In this document: one piece after another, positions 58,604-61,695 of the stretch
Layout of the letters: the number at the start of each line of letters is the position of its first letter
Numbering within the stretch: position 1 is the first letter of the stretch
Assembly (NCBI RefSeq): GCF_014899185.1
Contig: NZ_CP045201.1
Location: forward strand, 2,154,501-2,218,500
Source of the DNA: Pseudooceanicola spongiae
Lineage (GTDB): Bacteria > Pseudomonadota > Alphaproteobacteria > Rhodobacterales > Rhodobacteraceae
DNA length: 64,000 bases
Direction of reading: 5' to 3'
Notes under the pieces: model-generated
The model's input: only the letters and a program-made list of their open reading frames with translations
Databases searched by the model: none
Told to the model about the DNA's origin: nothing
Position numbers and translations under genes: made by a program

Positions 58604-59245
58604 CTACCAGCGCAGCCAGCGCCTGCCCGCCAGTGCACCCAGACCAGAGGCAAGGCAGATGCCCAATGCGTACCAGACACTGTAGAACAGCGGCGAATCT
58701 TCGTTGCAAAACAACGAATAGAGCGTTGTGGCCAGACCGGCGGCAGCGAGTCCGGCCAATGCACCACAGAGCGCAGGACGCACCGGCGCGCCACGCCGCA
58801 GTGCGGTGAGCAGAGCGGCCAGAATCGGCAAGGACAGCACCACAATGGAGGGCACGCAGACCGGGATCGAATGACCGAGGAACAGCGGCATCCTCTGCGC
58901 CGGGGGCGTGGTGAAAAACGCACCGATGAGCAGCAGAACGGCCGCAAAAGGCACCAGCCAGATCAGCAAGCGCGCTGCCCCGGGCGGGGCCGCAGGACGG
59001 GCCGCGCGCACCGAGAGCACAAGGGCGAACCCGGCCAACACCAGCGGCAACACCGTTTTCGCCATGACCACGGGCTGCGCCAGTGCGGCCCAAAGATCCG
59101 GTCGCGGCCCGAGGGCGATCCAGAACATCAGGGTCGTGACCAGCGCCCCTGCCAACAGATGCGGCGCGAGACGTGCCTCTGGCCCTGCGTTCGCGGCGAT
59201 GGCCGGTTGCGCCGCCAGCTGTGAGATCAGGTCTTCGGTCTTCAT
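58604..59245 (-). CDS. NrsF-like anti-sigma factor (DUF1109)
   Basis: This 213-residue membrane protein with about six helices belongs to the DUF1109/NrsF family. The cytoplasmic N-terminus MKTEDLISQLAAQPAI and the first helix region LAPHLLAGALVTTLMFWIAL fit, as does SIPVCVPSIVVLSLPILAAL with its conserved Cys. In Caulobacter NrsF keeps sigma factor SigF inactive until heavy-metal or redox stress (family knowledge). It follows the truncated sigma gene by 20 bp, the usual sigF-nrsF order. Confidence 0.88.
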   Translation of the reverse strand: MKTEDLISQLAAQPAIAANAGPEARLAPHLLAGALVTTLMFWIALGPRPDLWAALAQPVVMAKTVLPLVLAGFALVLSVRAARPAAPPGAARLLIWLVPFAAVLLLIGAFFTTPPAQRMPLFLGHSIPVCVPSIVVLSLPILAALLTALRRGAPVRPALCGALAGLAAAGLATTLYSLFCNEDSPLFYSVWYALGICLASGLGALAGRRWLRW

Positions 59246-59265
59246 TTACGCCTCTCGTCCGATAG

Positions 59266-59649
59266 TCAGGCCTCGTGTCCCACGGCCAGTTTGCGCAACC
59301 GTGCCAGGGCCCGATGATAGGCGACGCGCACCGCGCCCTCGCTCATCCCATGTTTCGCGCCGACGTCGCCCGCACTGTCGCCCGTCACCCCCAGCGAGCG
59401 CACGATATCGGCAGAGCGGTTGTCGATCCCGCCCAGCAACTGCCCCAGATCGCGGGCGGCCATGATCTCGCCCGCAGTCTCATCCGCCAGCACGTCGGCA
59501 AGATCATCGATATCCTGTTGCGGGACACCACGTCTGCGCCGCGCATCAATCGCCTTGTAGCGCACGATGGCATAGATCCAGGGCGTGACCGGCGCATCCT
59601 CACGCCAGGTGTGGCGTTTGGCGTGCAACGCCAGCAGCGCCTCCTGCAC
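59266..59649 (-). pseudogene. ECF sigma factor (SigF-like), N-terminally truncated
   Basis: Only 127 residues follow the first possible start (GTG). The frame before it still reads EDI, giving EDIVQEALLALHAKRHTWRE, which is sigma region 2.2-2.4. Upstream of about 59658 the frame is just antisense to the DUF692 gene. Region 4 is intact (SAGDVGAKHGMSEGAVRVAY). ECF factors of this group have roughly 170-185 residues, so about 45-50 N-terminal residues (regions 2.1 and part of 2.2) are missing. It is probably inactive for promoter melting but might still bind NrsF or -35 DNA. Confidence 0.8.
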
Positions 59650-59699
59650 GATATCCTCTGGCCCAGCTGCGCCACCTGTCCGAGCGGTTCGCGATTTCG

Positions 59700-60362
59700 G
59701 TGCATGGCGTCGGGCTGTCCATCGGCAGCGAAGGGCCGCTGGACGCGGAGCACCTGGGCCGCCTGCGCCACCTCTGCGACTGGCTGGCCCCGGCGCGCTT
59801 TTCCGAGCACCTCGCCTGGTCGAGCCATGACGGCGCCTTTCTGAACGACCTGCTGCCCCTGCCCTATACGCAATCCAGCCTGAACCGCATCTGCAATCAC
59901 ATCGATCAGGTGCAGGAGGTGCTGAACCGGCAGATGCTGCTGGAGAACCCCTCCTCCTACCTCGCCTTCGCGCAAAGCGAGATGAGCGAGACCGCCTTTC
60001 TGCGCGAGGTCAGCCAGCGCACCGGCTGCGGGCTGCTACTGGATATCAACAACGTCTTCATCTCGGCTGTGAACCTAGGGGTAGACCCGCGCGCCTATAT
60101 CGATGATTTCCCACTGGAAAAGGTCGGCGAGATGCACCTGGGCGGCCATGACGAGGATGCCGATGACGCAGGCCGTCCGCTGCTGATCGACAGCCACGGA
60201 CATGCTGTTTGTGATCCGGTCTGGGTGCTGCTGGACGCTGTCCTCGCCAAAGGAGGTCCCCGCCCCGTGCTGGTGGAATGGGACACCGAAGTGCCTGACT
60301 GGCCTGTTCTGGCTGCGGAGGCCGCGCGCGCGGCCGCAGCCTTGCAGGGTGTCATGGCATGA
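59700..60362 (+). pseudogene. DUF692 (MNIO family, BufB-like) enzyme, N-terminally truncated
   Basis: From the first in-frame GTG there are 220 residues. Family similarity extends upstream to about 59658 (LAQLRHLSERFAISVHGVGL). Full-length proteins have about 280 residues, so about 60-65 residues with the first barrel strands and the GIGLRxxH and EVHxENY segments are absent. The remaining part is well kept: FSEHLAW, LLENPSSYLAF, GLLLDINNVFISAVNLG, HLGGHDED and LVEWDTEVPDW. MNIO enzymes modify cysteines of small precursor peptides such as copper-binding bufferins. Its stop overlaps the next ATG. Confidence 0.8.
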
Positions 60363-61117
60363 AGGGGCCGGATCAAGGCACCTTTCGTACAGCGCTTCTG
60401 GAGGTCGGGAGCGCCGTGCCCGAGGGGCTGATCGATGGTCATGGCGGCGCGGCCGGGCAGCGCTTTGCCGTCTATCGCAACACCGTCGCCGTCGGGCTGA
60501 GCGAAGCGTTGGTCGAGGGTTTTCCGACCGTCGCCCGCCTGATCGGAGCGGAAAACCTGCGCCGGATTGCGGGCCTGTTCCTGCGCCAGAGCCCACCCGA
60601 CAGCCCGCTGATGTTTCGCTACGGTGCCGCGATGCCCGCTTTTCTGACGGAGTTTCAACCGCTTGCCCACCTCGGGTACCTGCCGGACGCCGCACGTCTG
60701 GATCTGGCGATGCGCGCGTCCTATCACGCCGCAGATGGCATTCCCGTTGCCGCTGATGCTCTGGCTCTATGGGCTGGTGAGCGTTTTGAGACCGCCCGGA
60801 TCACCCTCGCCCCTGCCCTGCGCGTGCTGCGATCGGACTGGCCACTGCACGACATCTGGCGGTCCGCGCAGGCCGGGGACGCCCCCCCGCCGCGTGCGCA
60901 GGCGCAAGATGTGGTGGTGGTGCGGCCCGCCTATGACCCGCAGCCACTGGCCTTGCCTGCGGGCGGCGCGGCCTTCCTTGAGGCCATCATCGCGGGTGCC
61001 AACGTCGTCGTGGCCTATGAGGCCGCCACGACAGAGACGCGAGATTTTGACCCGACAGGCCTGCTGACGTTGTTGCTGTCGGCGCAGGCAATCACTTGCA
61101 TGGAGACCCCGCTATGA
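60359..61117 (+). CDS. BufC/HvfC-type DNA-binding-domain (DUF2063) partner protein
   Basis: This 252-residue protein carries the DUF2063 domain at its N-terminus (GQRFAVYRNTVAVGLSEALV, EGFPTVARLIGAENLRRIAG), followed by GYLPDAARLDLAMRASYHAA. It is the usual partner of DUF692 enzymes and is thought to present the precursor peptide to them. The gene is intact, overlaps the DUF692 stop by ATGA and is overlapped the same way by doxX. Confidence 0.9.
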   Translation: MKGPDQGTFRTALLEVGSAVPEGLIDGHGGAAGQRFAVYRNTVAVGLSEALVEGFPTVARLIGAENLRRIAGLFLRQSPPDSPLMFRYGAAMPAFLTEFQPLAHLGYLPDAARLDLAMRASYHAADGIPVAADALALWAGERFETARITLAPALRVLRSDWPLHDIWRSAQAGDAPPPRAQAQDVVVVRPAYDPQPLALPAGGAAFLEAIIAGANVVVAYEAATTETRDFDPTGLLTLLLSAQAITCMETPL

Positions 61118-61695
61118 CAGACCCGACGGCCCCGCTGGACCGCCTGTCGCCCCTGCTGCCCGTACTGGCGCGCTTCGTCTTCGCGGCGGTGTTGCTTGTG
61201 TACTTCTGGTCCTCTGGCCTGACCAAGCTGGGTGAGGGAGCCTTGGGTTTTCTCAGCCCTTCAATCGGCGCCTATGCGCAGATATTTCCCAATTCTTTTG
61301 AAGCGGTTGGCTATGATGCCTCCCGGCTGAGCCTACTTCAGTGGGCGGTGACTGTCGCCGGAACCTGGGCCGAATTCCTTCTGCCCATGCTCGTTGTTCT
61401 GGGCCTGCTGACGCGCATGTCGGCACTGGGTATGATTGGCTTCATCGTCGTGCAGAGCCTGACCGATCTGTTCGGCCATGGCGGCATCGACCAGCCGGAA
61501 ACGCTCGGGGCGTGGTTTGACCGGATGCCGGACGGCGTGATCCTGGATCAGCGTGCGCTCTGGGTGTTTCTGCTGGTGGTGCTTGTGACGAGGGGTGGTG
61601 GCGCGCTGTCGCTGGACCGGCTGATCTTCAGAAATGCCGCTGCGGTTCGTCCGGCCGACCAGCGGCCAAGGCGAGAAGCGCAGCAACGCCGGTAA
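61114..61695 (+). CDS. DoxX family membrane protein
   Basis: This 193-residue protein with four helices belongs to the DoxX family. PVLARFVFAAVLLVYFWSSG, TVAGTWAEFLLPMLVVLGLL and MIGFIVVQSLTDLFGHGG are typical. DoxX proteins often close bufferin-type operons. Start MTDPTAPLD overlaps the bufC stop. The last 68 bases overlap the 3' end of a convergent gene. Confidence 0.88.
   Translation: MTDPTAPLDRLSPLLPVLARFVFAAVLLVYFWSSGLTKLGEGALGFLSPSIGAYAQIFPNSFEAVGYDASRLSLLQWAVTVAGTWAEFLLPMLVVLGLLTRMSALGMIGFIVVQSLTDLFGHGGIDQPETLGAWFDRMPDGVILDQRALWVFLLVVLVTRGGGALSLDRLIFRNAAAVRPADQRPRREAQQRR

Follow-up and report, generated by a model that had tools for sequence, protein, structure and literature searches.

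In Caulobacter crescentus, the sigF-nrsF genes (CC3253-CC3252) have been described together with the operon CC3254-CC3257, which encodes DUF2282, DUF692, DUF2063 and DoxX proteins, and SigF promoters of the form GTAACC-N16-CGAA are needed for expression of both units (accessible text of PMC3511200). Buf1 clusters, which specify MNIO-modified RiPPs, share a core of precursor, MNIO, DUF2063 and DoxX genes, and sigma-factor and NrsF genes have been reported with them (accessible text of PMC12452194). As far as these excerpts go, the system considered here is already known, both from Buf1 bufferin clusters, in which sigma and NrsF genes occur, and from the Caulobacter SigF regulon.

The window is the whole 64,000-nucleotide stretch of DNA analyzed here and corresponds to bases 2154501-2218500 of a 4.37-Mb genome assembled as a single contig (completeness 93.59%). 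Within it, a minus-strand frame for an ECF sigma factor abuts a plus-strand frame for a DUF692/MNIO enzyme at 59655-59658; nothing is inserted between the two coding frames, which may overlap by at most 4 bases (CCTC). The first-pass annotation had placed the end of recognizable sigma sequence at about 59658 and the start of DUF692 sequence at about the same base, each N terminus being short by about 45-65 residues. These statements hold: minus-strand sigma homology runs to 59658, plus-strand MNIO homology begins at 59655, and 49 (sigma) and 48 (MNIO) residues are missing relative to the closest full-length proteins. The sigF-type remnant (59266-59658, minus strand) lacks residues 1-49 and is 99% identical, over 98% of its length, to the full-length sigma factor P0121 (187 aa). 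The bufB (MNIO/DUF692) remnant (59655-60362, plus strand) lacks residues 1-48, matches PF05114 from position 39 of 263 and is 95 and 94% identical to P0002 and P0003, respectively, both of which are full length (283 aa). These proteins are the closest among the matches listed, the searches for sigma, MNIO and BufA proteins having covered the best 120 of up to 8000 matches. P0121 and P0003 belong to entries with the same longest contig (91,877 bases), as do P0002 and the BufA protein P0243 (654,800 bases), which suggests a common genome for each pair. Comparison with P0121, P0002 and P0003 was at the protein level; DNA spacing was taken from loci of the same genus. The neighboring genes look complete, as had been proposed: nrsF, the anti-sigma factor gene adjoining the sigma gene (58604-59245, minus strand; PF06532 positions 1-204 of 204), bufC, encoding the DUF2063 partner protein (60359-61117, plus strand; 4-83 of 83), and a gene for a DoxX family membrane protein (61114-61695, plus strand; 8-78 of 85). 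The contig holds one copy each of MNIO and NrsF.

Alignment with the sigF/nrsF-DUF692 locus of relatives, which had been advised at first pass, was performed to establish how much DNA is missing. The same two codons lie 816-947 bp apart in all 18 measurable same-genus loci (in the other 2 of 20, the sigma gene falls outside the available stretch) and -4 bp apart in the window, so that about 820-951 bp are missing. In the relatives, this stretch comprises the N-terminal 49 residues of the sigma factor, two divergent SigF-type motifs, the whole of bufA1 and the N-terminal 48 residues of the MNIO, and in all 20 loci the sequence immediately upstream of the window's break point encodes HAENY. A precursor gene between the sigma and MNIO genes had been conjectured; bufA1, encoding a DUF2282 bufferin precursor, occupies that position in all 20 same-genus relatives that possess the locus, 19 identified by pattern and the twentieth read directly. 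The product of bufA from P. sediminis matches DUF2282 with an E-value of 9.4e-24, and some of the related proteins listed from the database bear the name "BufA1 family bufferin-type metallophore". MNIO is present in 21 of 22 same-genus genomes, the window's own included, the one without it being 66% complete. Searches of the 4.37-Mb contig for bufA and the MNIO N terminus found neither elsewhere (best E-values of 0.11 and 0.36, respectively), and relocation within the contig was rejected. Thus, close relatives keep the intact arrangement, and no remnant of the segment is present at the junction.

The lost stretch would have carried both promoters. In the relatives, the sigF-bufA intergenic DNA is 160-184 bp long in the 17 loci for which both start codons were set, and alignment of 18 such regions revealed divergent motifs of the form [CT]GTAA[CT]-N15-18-CGAA on the bufA side in 18 and on the sigF side in 16. 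In 17 of 20 relatives the locus carries a strict version, TGTAACR-N15-17-CGAA, which the locus of the window genome lacks. Given that no SigF-type motif was matched at the junction and no sigma-70-like promoter in 59200-60420 (mean of 0.3 in shuffled sequences), the earlier view that the promoter region between the divergent genes is gone is confirmed. Across 22 genomes, the strict motif has 78 sites compared with 93 for a reversed control and therefore marks no larger regulon genome-wide. Other SigF-type promoters in the window's own genome were also considered and rejected, as the strict pattern had four matches and its reversed control eight; a single sequence accounts for two of the four and also occurs outside the locus in 14 of 21 same-genus relatives. 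Judged from these motif counts, no SigF target elsewhere in the genome seems to be indicated.

Between the two divergent motifs, just upstream of the bufA -35 box, a palindrome (TCAC-N6-GTGA) is present in all 18 aligned regions, for example at G004:C11:357156-357169 and G009:C10:367713-367726; it is deleted in the window at 59655-59658. It also occurs in 11 of the 11 loci with divergent sigF among the best 80 of 542 confirmed loci, of which 9 were already among the 18, the new cases being Tropicimonas (L033) and P. sediminis (L052). In a stricter scan of the same best 80, 8 loci had the palindrome flanked by two divergent promoters. Further copies (G000:C1:1329024 and others in G009, G004 and G020) were rejected as operators, since they all belong to a single conserved region, for which the two copies that were translated give SPVRDFIEK. 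A reading that we consider plausible, if somewhat short of probable, is that the palindrome may be the operator of a second, undescribed bufferin regulator, such that a two-input metal switch would have been lost in one deletion, with the anti-sigma factor remaining as an orphan.

The effect on the two truncated proteins was assessed from domain matches and structural models. In the sigma remnant, the only in-frame start left is a GTG at 59649, and sigma region 2 is incomplete, Sigma70_r2 being matched from position 24 of 71, compared with position 6 in P0121. In the AlphaFold2 model of P0121 (mean pLDDT 87.9, pTM 0.53), helices span residues 3-16, 20-41, 46-66 and onward; the remnant is thus predicted to lack the first two helices of the core-polymerase-binding domain and should be inactive. 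The AlphaFold2 model of P0002 (mean pLDDT 82.5, pTM 0.85) places strands at 13-16, 32-38, 61-65, 96-100, 143-145, 174-178, 205-211 and 253-256, and the residues lost from the MNIO include Glu-36, His-38, Glu-40 and Asn-41, invariant in 33 sequences. By this model the MNIO remnant would lack two of eight barrel strands and should likewise be inactive. Given the loss of two helices from one protein and two strands from the other, neither remnant is expected to work. Solved structures related to MNIO are 3bww, 8hci (TglH-like) and MbnB.

At its other end, the sigma frame stops early (59266-59268, minus strand); from P0121, a stop would be expected 8 codons further on. Past this stop, a P0121-like tail continues in frame (GHEA-stop-LSDERRK, compared with GHEARLSDERRK in P0121). 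The frame is 8 codons short relative to both P0121 and P0123; the tail is variable, and the P. sediminis sigma factor ends near the same place. The early stop may be a second lesion, additional to the N-terminal loss and absent from the first-pass annotation. Among other sigma relatives, P0222 (144 aa, Yoonia vestfoldensis) and P0229 (142 aa) are database entries lacking most of the N terminus, which reflect either mis-annotated starts or real short forms. The NrsF encoded beside the sigma remnant has cysteines at 130, 160, 180 and 197.

Private substitutions in the MNIO provide a measure of the age of the event. The window sequence has 7 (start residue apart), compared with 4 in P0002 and 8 in P0003; at columns conserved in >90% of 117 homologues, the corresponding numbers are 2, 3 and 1. 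The remnant thus carries no excess of substitutions, which speaks against an old loss and supports the earlier proposal that the event was recent; the same lack of decay would also be seen with an assembly error.

The distribution of MNIO was examined in a census of 149 family genomes drawn evenly from a larger group. A match was obtained in 106 of 149 (98 of 132 when genomes are restricted to a completeness of 90% or more and a contamination of 5% or less), whereas the remaining 43 had none, and thus the pathway is often missing. The best match starts at residue 18 or earlier in 104 of the 105 other matching genomes and at residue 48 in the window. The exception is G109, with a 74-residue MNIO fragment and a TGA stop (G109:C12:91600-91818). 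Separately, the MNIO of G121 is full apart from a single internal TAA stop (G121:C45:4524-5348). G109 and G121 are possible further losses of the bufferin pathway. Relatives with identical short genes, which the first-pass annotation had named as the case that would tell against its reading, were looked for and were absent among the 18 measurable same-genus loci and the family census. A set of 80 named loci (L023-L102), the best 80 of 542 confirmed, was sought partly with N-terminal patterns and for that reason was not used for truncation counts. In these best 80 of 542, pattern searches placed bufA upstream of MNIO in 76 and a divergent sigF within 1.7 kb in just 11, so that bufferin control may be different, or exerted from a distance, in many members of the family.

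We consider it likely that about 0.82-0.95 kb was lost from the chromosome by one recent deletion, which is predicted to abolish bufferin production and SigF control. The first-pass annotation had proposed that one deletion took away the 5' ends of the two genes together with their common regulatory DNA and any precursor gene between them, and support for this comes from the 18 of 18 measurable loci that keep the 0.82-0.95 kb, from bufA in 20 of 20 relatives and from the full length of near-identical proteins. Such a deletion would have removed sigma residues 1-49, the two divergent promoters, bufA1 and MNIO residues 1-48. At the junction (59655-59658, no strand assigned), CCTC could be the last bases of either flank; it belongs to the sigma side and would also belong to the MNIO side if the ancestral proline codon was CCT, one base being shared otherwise. 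This would fit a junction formed through microhomology of 1-5 bases, either in replication slippage or in illegitimate end joining, with no mobile element involved. Given that bufA1, the likely promoters and the 5' ends of the MNIO and sigma genes all lie in the lost stretch, the pathway is predicted to be dead: the sigma and MNIO remnants would be non-functional, NrsF would be left as an orphan anti-sigma factor, and bufC-doxX would be without their SigF promoter.

A recent, real deletion fits the data best, but a local assembly error would pass most of the same tests. Here, the strain would be intact and the contig, through misassembly or a deleted or chimeric molecule, would have lost about 0.9 kb. 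The completeness of 93.59%, for a single contig, is in keeping with such an error, as are the intact state of the closest relatives among the matches listed and the undecayed remnants. By contrast, the surrounding 264 kb contain no other convincing break. In a two-genome comparison of the window genome with relative G009 over this region, 115 of 133 matched genes were full length in one piece and 18 were flagged. Two of the 18 represent the deletion locus, and 13 of the other 16 were inspected and read as over-extended, alternative or opposite-strand frames. A generally frameshifted assembly was rejected, as the 13 inspected genes revealed no convincing break besides the deletion locus; the clean comparison weighs against an assembly of poor overall quality, though it does not count against a local error. 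In addition, the lost stretch is no richer in G+C than the following DNA in 20 of 20 relatives, and the early sigma stop would have to be an independent lesion, although the tail is variable and the P. sediminis protein ends nearby. On balance, an assembly error is considered unlikely.

It is far less probable that the short genes still work, with the sigma factor and MNIO starting at internal codons and the precursor encoded elsewhere. Both remnants remain open reading frames and contain GTG codons (59649 and 59700), short sigma relatives (P0222 and P0229) are annotated in the database, and many bufferin precursor genes lie away from MNIO genes (accessible text of PMC12452194). Set against this are the loss of the four invariant residues and two of eight strands from the MNIO and of two helices from the sigma factor, the failure to find bufA elsewhere in the contig, and the absence of the short form from every other genome of the 149 sampled. 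Transfer of the missing segment to a replicon outside the assembly is scarcely credible, for although plasmids could be missing from a single-contig assembly, half-genes at both ends would leave nothing workable after a move, and bufA and the MNIO N terminus are absent from the 4.37-Mb contig.

If the deletion is real, nature has provided a clean knock-out of the bufferin pathway that can be compared with close relatives in which the locus is intact. The strain could then serve directly as a control in copper-stress tests, and it would offer a snapshot of an early step in the loss of a pathway that is often missing from the sampled family genomes. A further product of the comparison is a map of the divergent SigF-type promoters of the genus and of the conserved palindrome between them.

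In relation to the described systems, the event is an ordinary gene loss in a known system. As far as the accessible text of PMC3511200 allows comparison, the relatives have the same genes as Caulobacter, with the sigma gene divergent from the operon and similar motifs on both sides. The motif itself differs from the Caulobacter GTAACC in being mostly GTAACG or GTAACA in this genus, which explains why a GTAACC promoter search in the 20 relatives gave four loose matches and no strict match. Unlike Caulobacter, the window has no precursor gene and neither promoter, and its copies of sigF and the DUF692 gene are short of their 5' ends; of the SigF/NrsF features, it retains the adjoining NrsF gene but neither a complete sigma region 2 nor the promoters. 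Similarly, when set beside the Buf1 clusters in the accessible text of PMC12452194, the relatives possess the core gene set, whereas the window copy, without bufA1 and with a partial MNIO gene only, retains the DUF2063 and DoxX genes of that core.
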